Of a DNA stretch of 64,000 bases, positions 48,072 through 55,283 are shown piece after piece (the first letter of the stretch is position 1; every line of letters begins with the position of its first letter). The notes beneath the pieces are model-generated. The model made no database searches. It saw nothing but the letters and a program-made list of their open reading frames with translations, and had not been told where the DNA came from. Location of the stretch: NCBI GenBank assembly GCA_027490145.1, contig JAIXYQ010000013.1, positions 1 through 64,000 of the forward strand, in the 5' to 3' direction. Origin of the DNA: Planctomycetaceae bacterium (GTDB taxonomy: Bacteria; Planctomycetota; Phycisphaerae; Phycisphaerales; SM1A02). The position numbers were made by a program, and so were the translations under genes.

Positions 48072-49386
48072 TCGTGGATGCCGTCGTGGGCTTGAGGGCT
48101 TCTTCCAGGGCGAGCAACGCGTAGCAGGTCACGAGTTCGGGCTTGTCTTCCTGCCAGCGCGCGGTGGCGTTGACCCACGCTCCATCGGGGCGCTGGGCGG
48201 CGAGCAGGCTCTCGATCAACTCGACGCGCCAGTCGTGGGATGTGCCCTGCCCATCGGTGATGGTGCGCTCGCCGTTCACCGCCAAGGCGCGGGCCATGGC
48301 GTGCCGGTAGTAGAAGAGGCCTTGCGTGCCGAGCCCCGGGTTCCGGTCGAAGCCCCAGTGGAGCGTGATCCAGCCGCGTGCGGCCTTGACGCGCGGATCG
48401 TCCGGTGCGAGGCCTGCGTAGAGCAGGCTCTTCAGGCCGGCATAGGTCATGCTGCCGTAGCTGCGCAGCGTCCGCGGCGTGCCGGCGGGGAGTTTCTCGC
48501 CGTACCGGCCTTCACCGGCATCCTCGCTCGCGAAGCTCTCGCCTCCGTTGGCGGGCGTGTAGACGAAGCCGCCGTCATCGCTGCCGGACTGGGCCCACGG
48601 CGACGGGTTGGTCGCCTTGAGGTTCTGCGTGCGGGTGACGAAGGCGAGGGCACGCTGCACGGCGGGATCGTCCTGGCTCACGCCTGCATCATGCAAGGCA
48701 TCAAGAAACAGTTGCGTATTGGAAAGATCGGGGCGCCCCCAGTTGCCGTAGCCCGCACCGCCGTACCAGTCCTTGGTCGCGGCCAGGCCTTCGGTGTGGT
48801 CCCACTGGTTCTGGCGCAGCCAGGCCACGCTCTGCTCGAGCATCGGGAGTTCATCAGGGCGGTCGAGTGCGGCCAGGCCCATGGCCACTGAGGCGGCGAC
48901 GTAGTTCCCAAGGCTCCCGGCGGGGTCCGGGACGAACGAACCCGCGGGGAAGGTCTCGGCCTTGATGAACCCGAGCGCGCGCGTGACGGTGGCATCGTGG
49001 GTGGCATCGCCTGACTGGGCGAAGGCCTTGACTGCCAGGCCGGTCACCGCCGTGGCGGCCGCTTGGCTCGGCTTTGGCTGATCGGTCCCCGCTGCGGCCT
49101 TGGCCACCATCCATCCGCCGGTCGGATCCTGCGATGCACCGAGCCACACGAGGCCACGCTGCAACGCCGCACGGGCGCGAGCGTCGAGCTCCGGGGGCAG
49201 TCCACTGTCCGTTGCCGACGCGGCGATCCTGTGGATCGGCGCCACCACGGGGCGGGTGGCTGCGGCCGCGGGTGGCGCAAGGCTCGTGATGCGGTCGCCC
49301 TTGATGCGAGGGTCGAGCGGCACGCTGGGCTCGAGGTAGGGCGGTTCGGCCAGGAGCGCGTGGGCGAGCAGGGCAACGGTGATCAT
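48046..49386 (-). CDS. Exported prenyltransferase/squalene-oxidase-repeat (alpha-toroid) protein
   Basis: A 446-residue protein with a short N-terminal hydrophobic signal (ITVALLAHALLAEPP). The rest is an alpha/alpha toroid of the type called squalene oxidase or prenyltransferase repeat: WLGASQDPTGGWMVA, WLRQNQWDHTEG, SDDGGFVYTPANGG, GSMTYAGLKSLLYAGL and LLAAQRPDGAWVNATARW. These QxPDGxW blocks match planctomycete proteins of unknown function; no DxDD cyclase motif is seen, so catalysis on squalene is unlikely. TACTGT lies 10 nt before the ATG. Confidence 0.85.
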   Translation of the reverse strand: MITVALLAHALLAEPPYLEPSVPLDPRIKGDRITSLAPPAAAATRPVVAPIHRIAASATDSGLPPELDARARAALQRGLVWLGASQDPTGGWMVAKAAAGTDQPKPSQAAATAVTGLAVKAFAQSGDATHDATVTRALGFIKAETFPAGSFVPDPAGSLGNYVAASVAMGLAALDRPDELPMLEQSVAWLRQNQWDHTEGLAATKDWYGGAGYGNWGRPDLSNTQLFLDALHDAGVSQDDPAVQRALAFVTRTQNLKATNPSPWAQSGSDDGGFVYTPANGGESFASEDAGEGRYGEKLPAGTPRTLRSYGSMTYAGLKSLLYAGLAPDDPRVKAARGWITLHWGFDRNPGLGTQGLFYYRHAMARALAVNGERTITDGQGTSHDWRVELIESLLAAQRPDGAWVNATARWQEDKPELVTCYALLALEEALKPTTASTITPAAPAR

Positions 49387-49395
49387 GGCGTGACG

Positions 49396-49402
49396 TACAG
49401 TA
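49396..49402. promoter_or_regulatory. Overlapping divergent -10 hexamers in a perfect palindrome
   Basis: TACAGTA gives TACAGT on the plus strand, 6 nt before the ATG at 49408, and TACTGT on the minus strand, 10 nt before the ATG at 49386. It lies inside the perfect dyad CGTAC-A-GTACG (49394-49404). The whole intergenic space is 21 bp. Confidence 0.5.
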
Positions 49403-49407
49403 CGGCC

Positions 49408-50784
49408 ATGCCCCACGATTCGCTGCGTTCGTCTGCGTTCCCGCTCAGTGCGGCCTTGAGCCTGACTTGCTTGGCCACGGCGTGCCAGCCGAAGGTGTCG
49501 CCTGGTCCCGCGCAGGCTCCCGCGACGGTCGCACCCGCTGCCCAGCAGGCCGTCGATCGTCCGGCGACCGAAGTGGCCGCGGAGCCCGCTGCCGCCGCGC
49601 CGCTCATCGAGCTCGGCGAGACCGCCGTTCTGGACGCATCGCAGCCCACCGTCTCGCCGACCTTTGGTTCGGTCACGGGCTGGGCAGGGAGCCGTCTCAT
49701 CGTGACCGGTCCTGAGCGAGTTCGTACCGGCGGATTCAACGGCCAGATCGCCACCTTCACCGAAGCCGATGGAACCTGGGTCGGCACGCGTGAACTGGCC
49801 GGGATCAGTGACACGTCGGTGTCCGAGACGGTGCTGCAATCGGTCGTCGGCAACGACGAATGGCTCTTCACGAGCGCCGAGGTGCAGGGGCGGGCAGGCC
49901 AGGTCGTCGTGTGGAAGCGTGACCAGGCCGCGTCAGGCTGGAAGCAGGTCCAGCGGCTGATGCCGCCGGCGACGCGCGCTGAGCCGGCGTTCGGCAGCGC
50001 CATGGCCATGGGCGATGGGTTCCTGGCGGTGAGCGCCGTCGATACGCGGTTCCGGGGTGAGCAGGGGCGATCGATCGTCGATGCGCCGCGCGTCTACCTC
50101 TTCACCCTCAAGGACGGGTCCTGGACCGGCGCGGGTTCGCTGTCGCCCGATCCAGCGTTGAAGGCAATCTGGTTCGGTGGAGCCATTGCGGCTTCGGGCG
50201 ATCAGTTGGCGATCGCCAGCCCGCGGGCCTGGCAACCGAGCCCCAAGCAGCCCGTGCAGGAGTCAGGCGAGTGCGCCGTGCACGTCTATCGGCGTGGCGC
50301 CAACGGCGTGTGGGCGCTGCGGCAGTCGATCGTGCCGCCGGCTGATTGCGCCTGGGGTGGGTTCGGCAACCGGCTCGCCATGCGCGGCAGCGTGCTCGTC
50401 GTTCGGGCGACGGACATCCCGACCACGGCCGCACGCATCTTCACCTACGAGGATGGTGCCCAGTGGGCTCCATCGGGTGAACTCAAGGCGAGCGCCTCGA
50501 GCGGCAGTGGATTCGGAACATCGTTCGACATCGGCGATGGTTTCATCGCGGTTGGCGATACCACGGCCAAGTCGCCCGGCGACCGTCTCGGTGCGGTCAC
50601 GGTCTTCGTGCCTGCTGCCGGCGGCTGGACCGAGCGATACGCGCTGCGTCCGACCGTCGCCATTCCCAACCGACGCTTCGGTGTCGGCGTGGCGGTGCGC
50701 GAGCGTCAGGTCGTCGTCGGACGCATGAAGAGCGAAACCGAGGGCATCGAGCCCGGTGGAGCCCTCGTCTTCACGATTCCCTGA
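49408..50784 (+). CDS. Predicted lipoprotein with FG-GAP/beta-propeller-like repeats
   Basis: A 458-residue protein. The signal peptide ends in a lipobox (C-L-A-T-A-C, Cys at about 26), followed by a Pro/Ala linker to about residue 70. The rest has repeated units of the pattern FGxxxAMGDGFLAVSAxD, FGGAIAASGDQLAIASP, FGNRLAMRGSVLVV and FGTSFDIGDGFIAVGD. This is the FG-GAP-like arrangement of a beta-propeller. It is probably exposed at the outer membrane. Function is unknown. It shares its promoter region with the divergent alpha-toroid gene. Confidence 0.83.
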   Translation: MPHDSLRSSAFPLSAALSLTCLATACQPKVSPGPAQAPATVAPAAQQAVDRPATEVAAEPAAAAPLIELGETAVLDASQPTVSPTFGSVTGWAGSRLIVTGPERVRTGGFNGQIATFTEADGTWVGTRELAGISDTSVSETVLQSVVGNDEWLFTSAEVQGRAGQVVVWKRDQAASGWKQVQRLMPPATRAEPAFGSAMAMGDGFLAVSAVDTRFRGEQGRSIVDAPRVYLFTLKDGSWTGAGSLSPDPALKAIWFGGAIAASGDQLAIASPRAWQPSPKQPVQESGECAVHVYRRGANGVWALRQSIVPPADCAWGGFGNRLAMRGSVLVVRATDIPTTAARIFTYEDGAQWAPSGELKASASSGSGFGTSFDIGDGFIAVGDTTAKSPGDRLGAVTVFVPAAGGWTERYALRPTVAIPNRRFGVGVAVRERQVVVGRMKSETEGIEPGGALVFTIP

Positions 50785-50857: not shown

Positions 50858-51163
50858 TCACTGCCACTTGCGGATGACGGTCGCTCCGGTGATGGCGGCT
50901 GAGGCCGCGAGGACGTGATTGGCGTACTCGGAGGGGATCGCCATGGGCCAAAGCGGGTTGATCGTGACGGCGACGGCGGCGAGGAGTCCGCACCAGACCG
51001 CGGCGCCGTCCCGGGCCATGGCCACCGCGCCGATGGTCAGGAGCCCGAACGCCGACCACTTCACCGAGGCCAGCACGGTGGGATCCGAAAGCCGCTCGGC
51101 CATGACGATCTGGCCGGCGAGCAGCGCGGTGGCGAGCGTAAGCAGCACGAGGACGATCTTCAT
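50858..51163 (-). CDS. Small membrane protein of unknown function
   Basis: A 101-residue protein with three or four hydrophobic segments (KIVLVLLTLATALLAGQIV; VKWSAFGLLTIGAVAM; VWCGLLAAVAVTINPLWP; VLAASAAITGATVI). No motif indicates a function. Start ATG at 51163, with GGGA about 8 nt upstream. It diverges from the H-NOX gene with 51 bp between. The pattern is like small DUF-type membrane proteins; I make no closer assignment. Confidence 0.7.
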   Translation of the reverse strand: MKIVLVLLTLATALLAGQIVMAERLSDPTVLASVKWSAFGLLTIGAVAMARDGAAVWCGLLAAVAVTINPLWPMAIPSEYANHVLAASAAITGATVIRKWQ

Positions 51164-51198
51164 GGTGGTTCCCTCGGGCACACCCTTCAGGCAGCCCG

Positions 51199-51204
51199 TA
51201 TCGT
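51199..51204 (+). promoter_or_regulatory. Putative -10 of the H-NOX signalling operon
   Basis: TATCGT with 10 nt to the ATG at 51215 and no Shine-Dalgarno site between them. It is the only promoter candidate found for the three-gene module. Confidence 0.35.
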
Positions 51205-51214
51205 GTATCGCACC

Positions 51215-51754
51215 ATGAAGGGCATTGTCTTTCGCGAATTCGGCGAACTGGTGACTGCGCGCTTCGGCGACGCCATGTGGGATGCCCTGATCTCCGAGAG
51301 CAAGGTGCCATCGGGGGGTGTCTACACCGCGGTCGGGACGTACCCCCACGAAGAGGCCGTGGCCCTGTTGATGACGCTCTCCCGAAAGACCGGAGCGTCG
51401 CCGGATGACCTGCTGAAGGTGTTCGGCGAGCATCTGTTCGGCGTGTTGGCGCATCGCTATCCGTTCGCCGTGGCGGCCCACGCCGACCTTGTTCCGTTTC
51501 TCGAGAGCCTTGAGGGTGTGGTGCACGTCGAGGTGCGCAAGCTGTATCCCGATGCGGAACTGCCATCGTTCGTGACCCATTGGGAGGGCGAGACCTTCAT
51601 CCTGGAGTACCGATCCGCGCGTCCGTTCGCCTCACTGGCGGAGGGCTTGCTGCTGGGAGCGATCGCGCATTGGGGGGGGCGATACGCGCTGACCCGCCGT
51701 TCGATGGGCGTTCCCGGGGCGCACGAGGCGATCTTCGAACTGAGGCGCACGTGA
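51215..51754 (+). CDS. H-NOX (heme nitric oxide/oxygen-binding) sensor protein
   Basis: A 179-residue stand-alone H-NOX domain. The start MKGIVFREFGELV is typical. The proximal heme ligand His is at residue 104 in VHVEVRKLYPDAELP, and the propionate-binding Y-x-S-x-R motif is at 132-136 (YRSAR). It should bind heme b and sense NO or O2; which gas depends on the distal pocket, which I cannot settle by eye. Its stop overlaps the GTG start of a histidine kinase, the classic partner of bacterial H-NOX proteins. Confidence 0.92.
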   Translation: MKGIVFREFGELVTARFGDAMWDALISESKVPSGGVYTAVGTYPHEEAVALLMTLSRKTGASPDDLLKVFGEHLFGVLAHRYPFAVAAHADLVPFLESLEGVVHVEVRKLYPDAELPSFVTHWEGETFILEYRSARPFASLAEGLLLGAIAHWGGRYALTRRSMGVPGAHEAIFELRRT

Positions 51755-52638
51755 CCCACGATGGGGGTGATCAGGACCTTGGACTGCTGCGCCGCATGCT
51801 GGCGCGCGAGCGCGCGGCCCGCGAGCAGGCCGAGATGCTGTTGGAGAACAAGTCGCGGGACCTGTACGCGACCCTGAGTCGGCTGCAGCGCGTGGTGGGT
51901 GAACTGGATGCCGCGCGCCGCCAGGCGGAGCATCACAGTGCTGCGAAGGGGCTGTTCCTGGCCGACCTCAGCCACGAACTGCGCACGCCCTTGAATGCCG
52001 TCATCGGCTACGCCGAGATGATCGCCGAGGATCCGGGTGGGGACCAGGTGGTGCCCGATGCCCGGCGCATCGTGGTGGCGGGGCGAGGTCTGCTCGCCCT
52101 GATCAACAACGTGCTCGACTACAGCAAGGCTGAGTCGGGCAGGCTCGAACTCTCGCTGCAGCCGGTCGAGGTGCCGACCGTGATCGAGGAGTCGATCTCG
52201 ATCGCCCTGCCCATGGTCTTGGAGCATCGCTCCTCCGTGCATGCCGAGGTCGAACCCGGATTCGCCACCGTCATGTCCGACCCGGTCCGGCTGCGCCAGG
52301 TCCTGCTCAACCTGCTGTCGAACTCCGCCAAGCACACGGTCGAAGGCATGATCACCGTCAAGGCCTCGCCGCTGGGGGTGGATCACTATCGCATCCAGGT
52401 CGTCGACACGGGGCGTGGCATGGACCGGAGCCAGCTCGACAGGCTGTTCGAACCGTTCCAGCCCGTCCAGCGCGAGGAAGGCATGCGATTCGCCAGCACC
52501 GGCCTGGGGATGAGCATCACGCGCCGGATCGTGCTCATGCTCGGTGGTGGGATCGACGTGCAGAGCAGCGTGGGCCACGGCACCACGGTCACGGTTGACC
52601 TGCCGGTGTCGGGTCCGGCGACCCAGGAGGCCGCATGA
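51751..52638 (+). CDS. Soluble sensor histidine kinase, H-NOX partner
   Basis: A 295-residue kinase without membrane segments. Residues about 10-60 are a coiled coil (RERAAREQAEMLLENKSRDLYATL). The HisKA domain follows, with phospho-acceptor His75 in FLADLSHELRTPLNAVIGY. The ATPase domain has N box LLNLLSNSAKHT, G1 VVDTGRGM, F box FEPFQP and G2 STGLGMSI. It starts with GTG within the H-NOX stop (GTGA). No response regulator is in the window; the next gene is a Ser/Thr kinase. H-NOX probably controls its autophosphorylation. Confidence 0.92.
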   Translation: MTHDGGDQDLGLLRRMLARERAAREQAEMLLENKSRDLYATLSRLQRVVGELDAARRQAEHHSAAKGLFLADLSHELRTPLNAVIGYAEMIAEDPGGDQVVPDARRIVVAGRGLLALINNVLDYSKAESGRLELSLQPVEVPTVIEESISIALPMVLEHRSSVHAEVEPGFATVMSDPVRLRQVLLNLLSNSAKHTVEGMITVKASPLGVDHYRIQVVDTGRGMDRSQLDRLFEPFQPVQREEGMRFASTGLGMSITRRIVLMLGGGIDVQSSVGHGTTVTVDLPVSGPATQEAA

Positions 52639-53939
52639 CGCCGGAGCAGCGATCACACGCGAGGGAGTTGGCCCGGCAGGCCCAGGCCGATGGTGTGCAG
52701 CATGTGCACGAGTGGCTCTGCGAGCGGACGGATGACGCGCTGGTCCGTGAGGAAGCCAAGCGGATCCTGGCCCACCAACCCACGAGCGCCGAGTCCTCGG
52801 TGGCCCCGGCGCCCAGGCGGCCCTCGGCGGTGGATCCGATGCTCGGCCTTGAGCTTGGGGGGTTCCGCATCGAGCGACTGATCGGCTCCGGCGGAATGGG
52901 ACGCGTGTACGAGGGCACCCGGGAGGGGCAGCCATCGCGCGCCGCCGTGAAGGTGCTGTCTCGGGGTGGCGTGACCGACATCGCCATGCGCAGGTTCCAG
53001 CAGGAGTCCGCGATCCTGGCCAAGCTCGACCATCCGGGGATCGCGCGCCTGCATGCCAGCGGCCTGCACGACGACGGCCAATCGACCTTCCCCTGGTTCG
53101 CGATGGAGTTCATCGACGACGGGCTCGACCTCACCGACTGGGCGGCGCGGCAGGCGTTGCCGTTGCGTGGCCGTCTTGAGCTCTTCGTGCGTGTGTGCGA
53201 TGCCATCGCGCATGCCCATGCGCAGGGCATCGTGCACCGTGACCTGAAGCCGGGCAACATCCTCGTCGATGCACGGGCCCAGGTGAAGGTGATCGATTTC
53301 GGCATCGCGCGCGCGGCCCAGGAGGATTCGTCCCGCTTCGGTGTGCGGACCGAGACCGGCCAACTGGTCGGCACGCTGCAGTACATGAGCCCCGAGCAGT
53401 GCCTGGGGCAGCGTGATCGGATCGATGCCCGCACCGACGTGTACGCGCTGGGCATGATCCTCTTCGAACTGCTCACCGAGACGTATCCGTACGACGTGCG
53501 GGGTGTGCCCGTGGCCGAGGCGATCCAAACGGTGTCGCATGGCAAGGTGCCCGACTTGCATGAAGCGCTGCCGGAGGCGCCCGATGCCTTGGTCGATGCC
53601 GTGGCCCGTTGCCTAGCCAAGGATCCCGGCGCCCGCCACGCCGATGCCGGTGCACTGGCGACCGCGCTGCGAGGAGTGCTCGCGCCGAAGCCGGCCACCA
53701 TGACCGCGAAGGGGGCCGATGCGGTGGGGCAACGATCGCCGGGAGGTGGATCGCGGTCACCATCCGGCGCGGGGGCGACCACCGGTGCGTCGAAGGGCGC
53801 GTCCGGCCGGGCGCCCGGATCATCGCGCGTGATGGGAGCGGTGATCGCGCTGCTGGCGGCGTCGCTCCTCCTGGCCGCGCTGGATGTGTTCGGGGTGGTC
53901 GACGTGCGCGGGTTGGCCTCGCGTCTCTTCGGTCGTTGA
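52635..53939 (+). CDS. Membrane-anchored Ser/Thr protein kinase (Hanks type)
   Basis: A 434-residue kinase. An N-terminal segment of about 70 residues precedes the kinase domain (about 74-345): P-loop GSGGMGRVYEG, Lys in AAVKVLS, catalytic HRDLKPGN, DFG in VIDFGIARA, and APE-like SPEQ. A Gly/Ser/Ala linker and one membrane helix (about 402-422) follow, with only a short tail beyond and no extracellular sensor domain. It overlaps the histidine kinase by 4 nt (ATGA). Coupling suggests that it acts downstream of the H-NOX/histidine kinase pair. Confidence 0.93.
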   Translation: MTPEQRSHARELARQAQADGVQHVHEWLCERTDDALVREEAKRILAHQPTSAESSVAPAPRRPSAVDPMLGLELGGFRIERLIGSGGMGRVYEGTREGQPSRAAVKVLSRGGVTDIAMRRFQQESAILAKLDHPGIARLHASGLHDDGQSTFPWFAMEFIDDGLDLTDWAARQALPLRGRLELFVRVCDAIAHAHAQGIVHRDLKPGNILVDARAQVKVIDFGIARAAQEDSSRFGVRTETGQLVGTLQYMSPEQCLGQRDRIDARTDVYALGMILFELLTETYPYDVRGVPVAEAIQTVSHGKVPDLHEALPEAPDALVDAVARCLAKDPGARHADAGALATALRGVLAPKPATMTAKGADAVGQRSPGGGSRSPSGAGATTGASKGASGRAPGSSRVMGAVIALLAASLLLAALDVFGVVDVRGLASRLFGR

Positions 53940-54005: not shown

Positions 54006-55283
54006 TCAGTGCACCGACTGGCTCATGCGGAAGATCGGCAGCAGGATGCTCGCGGCGATGCCGCCGACGACGACGCCCATGAAGATGATCATCAGCGGCT
54101 CGATCATGCCGGTGACGGTCTTGATGGCGGCGTCGAGTTCCTCCTCGGCGAAGGCGGCGATGCGCTCGAGCACCTCGGGCAGCCGGCCGGCGCGCTCGCC
54201 GGCGTTGAACATCGCGCTGATGTTGCGCGGGATGAATGCGGCCTGCAGGAGCGTCGGGCTCATCTCCTGGCCGTGGTTGACGCGCTCACGCAGGTCGTCC
54301 CACATGCGGTCCCAGTAGGTGTTGGCCGTGACGGCCTTGGTGATGCGGATCACCTCCAGCAGGGGAACCCCGGCAGCAAGCAGCGTGCCCATCGTGTTGG
54401 TCATGCGCGCCACGTAGAGCTGTCGGAACATCGGCGAGATGATGGGCAGGTTGAGCTTGGCCCAGTCGATGGCCAGTCGCCCGCGGGCTGTCCGCGCCAG
54501 GACCGTGGCCGCGAAGCAGAGTGCCGCGAGCGCCGGCAGGTAGAGGTGCCACCAGCCCTTCAGGAAGGCGCTGGCCATGAGCAGCCACTTGGTCAGCAGC
54601 GGGAGCCGATCACCCTGCGCCTTGAAGAGCGGCGCGAAGGTCGGCAGCACGAAGACCATGATCACCGTGACGGCCGTGATGGCGACGGCGAGCATGATGC
54701 CCGGGTAGACCATGGCACCCTTGACCTGCTTAGCGGTCTTGCGCGCCTTGAGCAGGTCCTTGGCCACGCGCGAGAGCATCTCGTCCATCGTGCCGCTGGC
54801 CTCGGCCGCCTGCATGAGGCTCACGAGGATCGACGGGAAGATCCTGGGCCACTTCGCCAGGGCAGCGCTGAACTCCTCGCCCTCGCAGACATCGTCCTTG
54901 ATCGCACGAACCACCGTGGCGACCTCGGGACGGGCGGCCTGCTCGCTGAAGGTTTCGAGCGCCTCGGCGAGCGGCACGCCGGTCTTCATCATGACCGAGA
55001 GCTGCTGGCAGAGCGCGATGACGTCGTCGTTGCTGAAGCGCGCGCTGAGGCGGTTGCGCGAGATCGCGCCCTTCTGGCCGACGGCGGCGGCAAGGTCGCC
55101 GAGTTCGATGCTCAGGACGACCAGGCCGTCGCGCCGGAGCTGGCGCACGGCGGCTTCGTGGGTCGGGGCCTCGAGCACGCCGCGCACGAGTTCGCCGCTG
55201 CCGCGCCGGGCGCGGTAGGCGAACTTGCGGGTGGCGGTGGCTTCGGGCTGGCCGAGCAGGCTGGCATCAATGGCGGCAGGCAC
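54006..55283 (-). CDS. gspF: Type II secretion/type IV pilus inner-membrane platform protein (GspF/PilC)
   Basis: A 425-residue protein with two GspF domains and three expected membrane helices. The first domain follows FAYRARRGSGELVRGVLEAPTHEAAVRQL; the ISRNRLSARFSNDDVIALCQQLSVMMKTGVPLAEALE region is typical in pieces. The platform recruits the ATPase and drives pseudopilus assembly. Start is GTG at 55283 with GGAGG about 5 nt upstream; the gene overlaps gspE by 17 bp. Confidence 0.93.
   Translation of the reverse strand: MPAAIDASLLGQPEATATRKFAYRARRGSGELVRGVLEAPTHEAAVRQLRRDGLVVLSIELGDLAAAVGQKGAISRNRLSARFSNDDVIALCQQLSVMMKTGVPLAEALETFSEQAARPEVATVVRAIKDDVCEGEEFSAALAKWPRIFPSILVSLMQAAEASGTMDEMLSRVAKDLLKARKTAKQVKGAMVYPGIMLAVAITAVTVIMVFVLPTFAPLFKAQGDRLPLLTKWLLMASAFLKGWWHLYLPALAALCFAATVLARTARGRLAIDWAKLNLPIISPMFRQLYVARMTNTMGTLLAAGVPLLEVIRITKAVTANTYWDRMWDDLRERVNHGQEMSPTLLQAAFIPRNISAMFNAGERAGRLPEVLERIAAFAEEELDAAIKTVTGMIEPLMIIFMGVVVGGIAASILLPIFRMSQSVH

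Follow-up and report, generated by a model that had tools for sequence, protein, structure and literature searches.

The activating input of bacterial Hanks-type Ser/Thr kinases is often not known, and a 64,000-nucleotide stretch of DNA from a Planctomycetaceae bacterium (contig JAIXYQ010000013.1, positions 1 to 64,000; hereafter the window) raises the question of whether one such kinase could take its input from a gas sensor encoded in the same operon. Three genes follow one another on the forward strand: an H-NOX gene (51215..51754; ATG to TGA, 179 amino acids (aa)), a histidine kinase (HK) gene (51751..52638; GTG to TGA, 295 aa), and a Hanks-type Ser/Thr kinase (STK) gene (52635..53939; ATG to TGA, 434 aa). 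The H-NOX stop and HK start codons share a GTGA (51751..51754, +), and the HK stop and STK start codons share an ATGA (52635..52638, +). Both the coordinates and the overlaps had been claimed in an initial annotation of this DNA and proved exact. A Pfam scan of the three proteins returned HNOB, HisKA with HATPase_c, and Pkinase, with no other notable domain family. The operon stands alone, flanked by a small divergent gene on the left and a convergent gspF-like gene on the right. This three-gene operon is genuine. The best explanation for it, which we hold tentatively and at somewhat less than even confidence, is a genus-specific nitric oxide (NO) signalling operon that arose by a sensor swap.

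The order in which the parts came together is seen by comparison with relatives. The STK was searched against 181 genomes of the family, and wide flanks were taken for 20 of the best matches outside the genus. These next-best matches share 43-50% identity with the window STK and start at residue 1. In 19 of the 20 relatives (the exception being L275) the STK ortholog faces gspF, and an FG-GAP gene lies upstream of it in 17. An H-NOX or HK gene was recognised beside the STK ortholog in none of the 20, with the contigs of L269 and L270 ending ~0.4 kb upstream. The four genus loci tested all have the order FG-GAP, small gene, H-NOX, HK, STK, gspF, gspE. In the window, the synteny markers are a resident FG-GAP repeat gene (49063..50784, +; PF14312, 3e-12; frame as listed, start uncertain) and the gspF-like gene (54006..55283, -; PF00482, 5e-55), which is convergent with the STK. 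Between the FG-GAP gene and the H-NOX lies the small divergent gene (50858..51163, -; 101 aa, no Pfam family), found in all four genus loci tested and with a sequence match in six of the 20 relatives; it is likewise resident and marks the left border of the insertion. The initial annotation took the STK for a third member joined to an H-NOX/HK pair, and the synteny shows the reverse. Because STK orthologs keep their surroundings without H-NOX or HK, the simplest account would make the STK an old resident and the H-NOX/HK pair a newcomer, inserted between the small gene and the STK start. An ancestral trio from which other genera lost the pair is very improbable, as it needs a clean loss, with no remnant recognised, in each of 20 relatives spanning several genera; what it has in its favor is that the genus H-NOX clade is not placed firmly in the tree, so the source of the pair is not indicated.

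A second difference from the relatives lies in the STK itself. The kinase domain is intact: the Pkinase match covers residues 78-335 (52866..53639, +; PF00069, 1.2e-42), and the catalytic motifs are complete (Gly loop at 84, catalytic Lys at 106, HRD at 201, DFG at 221, SPE at 252). A single strongly hydrophobic stretch at residues 403-421 (53841..53897, +) is followed by 13 residues only, in keeping with the initial description of a membrane-anchored kinase that has no outer sensor. In all 20 relatives, 106-213 residues follow the membrane segment, and a PEGA domain is found in 19 (one below the Pfam curated cut-off; L277 has none) as compared with none of five genus members scanned. These PEGA-domain Hanks kinases of the same family are orthologous to the window STK and share its N-terminal domain, membrane segment, and gspF neighbor, whereas the window STK is without the outer PEGA domain and has H-NOX and HK inserted before its start codon. 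The kinase domain has also been remodelled. Of 74 kinase positions that are fixed within 16 relatives and also within seven genus members, nine differ between the two groups, and four of these nine fall within residues 256-261, just past the SPE motif (permutation p 0.011). These data suggest that an external input to the STK was replaced by an internal one based on gas sensing. The proposal that the input of the STK may come from its two neighbors, made on first inspection, gains plausibility from the fact that only this genus has lost the outer domain.

The strongest rivals to a sensor swap are a shared downstream target, taken up below, and shared expression alone, which is the main rival when the matter is put briefly. 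Under the latter, the H-NOX/HK pair landed behind the STK promoter and is co-transcribed with the STK without cooperation, and the outer domain decayed independently. Unrelated genes do also occur in tight operons, and the STK does without an H-NOX/HK partner in all 20 relatives. We consider this account unlikely, as the outer-domain loss is confined to the genus with the insertion and is accompanied by the fixed remodelling past the SPE motif.

Conservation within the genus also speaks against shared expression alone. The trio is found in eight of nine genomes of one genus of uncultured planctomycete bacteria; the window-type H-NOX and the STK occur in the same eight, and an H-NOX of one or other kind occurs in all nine. 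Seven of the loci are complete. In G007 a contig break falls within HK, such that H-NOX and the start of HK are on one contig, and the remaining HK sequence and the STK are on another. Protein lengths in the complete loci are 179 aa for H-NOX, 295 for HK, and 432-435 for STK. Both 4-bp overlaps are at the identical position in all seven complete loci, and the first is also present in the contig-cut locus L033; in one ortholog it reads ATGA rather than GTGA. Synonymous p-distances from the window are 0.44-0.56, and dN/dS values against the window are 0.12-0.22 for H-NOX, 0.11-0.18 for HK, and 0.08-0.11 for STK (all Nei-Gojobori), the STK being the most conserved of the three proteins. These values indicate purifying selection on all three genes. 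At such synonymous divergence, the recurrence of both overlaps in 7/7 loci exceeds chance, and it is a point against co-expression as the sole reason for the arrangement. Two genus members, L030 and L033, are deposited as Bacteroidia bacterium and Singulisphaera sp.; these are probably misnamed metagenome bins.

The sensor at the head of the operon is predicted to be of the NO type. The window H-NOX matches HNOB over profile positions 1-155 of 163 (3.1e-32), and its best solved structural relative is 6bde_A (2.5e-35). The intact His104 and YRSAR motif noted initially are both present; seven other genus members read YRSQR, and the proximal heme-ligand His together with the Y, S, and R of YxSxR is kept in 8/8 orthologs. 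Leu stands at the position that we take, from the numbering of Tt H-NOX, to be that of the distal Tyr (five residues past the motif Arg), and it does so in all eight ortholog motif stretches. A distal Tyr marks O2-type H-NOX proteins, according to passages in PMC12329717. The initial annotation had left the ligand as NO or O2: the residues favor NO, and O2 sensing is unlikely because Leu replaces the Tyr that O2 types carry. A further candidate role was redox sensing, which in the Vibrio cholerae H-NOX proceeds through a zinc-Cys site, as part of a review describes (PMC8738867). The window protein contains no Cys, and therefore such a switch is not available to it and is disfavored; six of eight orthologs have none, and two have one.

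The region directly before the H-NOX start is near-invariant across the orthologs. The 20 bases at 51195..51214 (+) are identical in seven of eight orthologs, with a single difference in the eighth. Within the gene, degenerate codons 2-14 are unusually fixed (8/11 vs 22/91 in the rest; Fisher p 0.002), such that near-invariant bases and fixed 5' codons together span window positions 51195-51260. The 16-base core of the stretch has one copy in the genome at ≤2 mismatches. A regulon site was rejected on this ground; being single-copy, the element looks like the operon's own start region, probably a promoter or a short-leader start region. Neither a sigma-70-type promoter consensus nor an intrinsic terminator was found at the operon locus. 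The near-invariant stretch fits one shared promoter, a point in favor of shared expression alone. In the relatives, a hexamer resembling a promoter element is seen by eye just before the STK start, as a candidate only.

The HK has the features of an H-NOX-associated kinase: it adjoins H-NOX, it contains HisKA (3.5e-18) and HATPase_c (2.3e-27), and its boxes are complete (H box at 74; N, G1, F, and G2 all present). It has no predicted membrane segment, and its best 19-residue hydrophobicity mean is 1.35 (H-NOX, 1.14) vs 2.47 for the STK, which bears out the initial description of the HK as soluble. Ahead of HisKA, the N-terminus carries the coil ARERAAREQAEMLLENKSRDLY. In an examination of the neighborhoods of 161 distinct H-NOX frames (coverage given below), the pattern of this coil was found directly downstream of H-NOX in 31, namely 25 of the 52 neighborhoods whose heme-His motif is similar and 6 of the 109 others. 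This coil is, we infer, the module that receives the H-NOX input. In G1031 and G983, two genomes from the same family, the coil-bearing partner of H-NOX is not an HK, and the one scanned is a GAF-HD protein (L198, 1887-4828; the other is at L199). Judging from their sequences, these partners have the same input module as the window HK and a different output.

In the mechanism that we propose for the sensor swap, NO would bind the H-NOX heme, and NO-bound H-NOX would alter HK activity through contact with the N-terminal coil of HK, as in known H-NOX/HK pairs. By the simplest route, the co-made STK would receive the NO state by contact with H-NOX or HK in a complex, and NO would in this way set Ser/Thr phosphorylation at the membrane. 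By Pfam, the STK has no receiver domain, because of which HK-to-STK phosphotransfer is not expected and would have no basis in the sequence. Regulation of a partner HK or c-di-GMP enzyme by NO-bound H-NOX is described in part of the above review (PMC8738867). Control of the STK by the pair is what we infer from the arrangement, and the contact partner could be either H-NOX or HK, the choice not being given by sequence alone.

The other strong rival would route the signals differently. In a shared-target model, HK and STK are separate, co-made enzymes that phosphorylate a common protein further downstream, such as an orphan response regulator; NO input would enter via HK and some other cytosolic input via STK, and the two would converge, much as PknH and DosS/DosT do on DosR. 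To our knowledge, the genes of the DosR case do not form one operon, which counts against the analogy. STK phosphorylation of DosR under NO in Mycobacterium tuberculosis is the subject of one study (PMC12919924, from the part available), and repeated cases of response regulators phosphorylated by STKs are given in sections of another (PMC6213207). The window genome also encodes receiver proteins without an HK in the flanks fetched, such as L109 (163 aa) and L113 (213 aa). The genome has 10 Pkinase matches and 15 receiver matches (one below the cut-off); none of the 15 lies on the contig of the window, as the first report of no response regulator nearby would lead one to expect, and the trio is not accompanied by the cognate response regulator of a complete two-component system. 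With no receiver gene on the contig and no particular target pinpointed, a shared target seems doubtful to us.

Whether H-NOX is coupled to Hanks kinases elsewhere bears on the sensor swap, which such coupling would support, and on shared expression alone. The 161 H-NOX neighborhoods covered all 54 H-NOX places of a 392-genome phylum sample (42 genomes with H-NOX), wide flanks for 59 of 102 H-NOX-positive genomes in an order sample, 33 named loci, and a 288-genome sample around the Verrucomicrobiota genome G430, in which all 16 positive genomes were examined. They comprise seven trio loci (all in the genus), four H-NOX-STK fusions, two H-NOX/STK pairs, and two divergent receiver-STK loci. Of the rest, 11 have an STK elsewhere within 7 kb and were not counted as linked, and 135, of which some are on short contigs, have no STK in view. 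In the 16 genomes around G430, there was neither a fusion nor an STK within 5 kb of H-NOX. STKs 1 kb upstream of H-NOX at L214 and L218 were also not counted, given a gap of ~0.5 kb that in L214 holds a divergent receiver gene.

Three of the fusions, all confirmed by Pfam, are encoded by G102, a 12.3 Mb planctomycete genome (L159, 6724-8925; L161, 5475-6980; L167, 6370-7974); the heme His and a YxSxR-like motif are visible in them. The fourth (G163; L176, 4496-6499) is an H-NOX-STK-TPR protein with a degenerate H-NOX in which neither heme His nor YxSxR was seen, and it may not bind heme. In the two pairs (L171, 6756-8541, in G114; L177 in G134), H-NOX is followed by a Hanks kinase at the point of overlap, with no HK. 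These fusions (four proteins) and pairs (two genomes) indicate that H-NOX-to-STK coupling exists in the phylum, and their independent occurrence is a further point against shared expression alone. In G232 (L153, 5282-6643) and G204 (L155, 4756-6081), an H-NOX-HK-receiver operon has a divergently oriented receiver-STK as its neighbor, through which phosphate of a two-component system might be passed directly to a Ser/Thr kinase. The H-NOX/STK cases account for all three H-NOX-bearing genomes among the 10 in the order of G102 and for both of those among the 29 in the class of G114.

An H-NOX tree was built from 156 stretches, the five of 161 under 110 residues, including the G163 fusion, having been dropped. 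The trio, the G102 fusions, the pairs, and the receiver-STK loci fall on separate supported branches, in a tree whose bootstrap had not settled. The trio branch (eight rows, including the contig-cut L033) is fully supported, with its neighbors lacking resolution, and it is the gene arrangement, not this tree, that sets the trio apart from the receiver-STK loci as an independent case. We place at about an even chance the wider proposition that H-NOX was recruited several times in Planctomycetota as a cytosolic input of Hanks kinases, with NO read out directly as Ser/Thr phosphorylation, in the forms of fusions, operon pairs, receiver-STK neighbors, and an H-NOX/HK insertion followed by discard of the outer sensor.

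Several observations weigh against the sensor swap. One genus genome, G004 (77% complete), is without both the window-type H-NOX and the STK. The N-terminal domain of the STK is ancestral, and no H-NOX docking coil was recognisable in it. Outside the genus, the trio was found at none of the examined H-NOX loci, and most H-NOX genes there go with receiver-carrying hybrid HKs. The outer domain could also have been lost for reasons that have nothing to do with the insertion. Conservation of the trio across genomes, the check proposed in the initial annotation, was borne out within the genus by linkage kept in eight of nine genomes and not beyond it, where the STK ortholog stands without H-NOX and HK; as a whole, that earlier interpretation is partly supported.

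Some elements of this operon are already known, namely H-NOX/HK pairs and STK action on two-component regulators. Like the HnoX/HnoK-type pairs of Vibrio, Shewanella, and Legionella, the window has an HK with HisKA and HATPase_c right after an H-NOX of predicted NO type; it differs from them in having no response regulator on the contig and an STK as a translationally coupled third gene. In the part of the review considered here (PMC8738867), the H-NOX partners covered are HKs and c-di-GMP enzymes. The PknH/DosR case likewise brings a membrane Hanks kinase together with a two-component system related to NO (PMC12919924, in part); in contrast to it, the window has an H-NOX in place of the DosS/DosT heme sensors, a single operon, and a contig on which no response regulator was found. 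The other Planctomycetota fusions and pairs share the coupling of H-NOX to a Hanks kinase, although theirs is without an HK and sits on other H-NOX tree branches (G163 being too short to place).

HstK-type proteins of cyanobacteria combine a Ser/Thr kinase and a histidine kinase in one polypeptide. The window likewise joins STK and HK in one signalling unit, with the difference that these are separate frames with a 4-bp overlap, in a set of three genes that includes H-NOX. A limited search found no literature on the trio or how insertion produced it, on the disappearance of the outer sensor, or on H-NOX-STK fusions, and earlier notice is possible. Should the coupling prove functional, Ser/Thr phosphorylation in bacteria would respond to NO with no response regulator in between, and the fusions of H-NOX to STK would offer one-protein systems for a direct test. 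The related genera provide a before/after comparison of one kinase, which has an outer sensor and no gas sensor on one side, and translational coupling to a predicted gas sensor but no outer sensor on the other.

The window genome has a second H-NOX gene on another contig (C7), and the gene after it encodes a hybrid HK that carries a receiver of its own. Tandem H-NOX genes are seen in several genomes of the family (L075, L209, L229, L234, L235, and others). In G403, both H-NOX copies (L180 and L170, on contigs C3 and C5) give split matches, one with a stop codon, and look disrupted.

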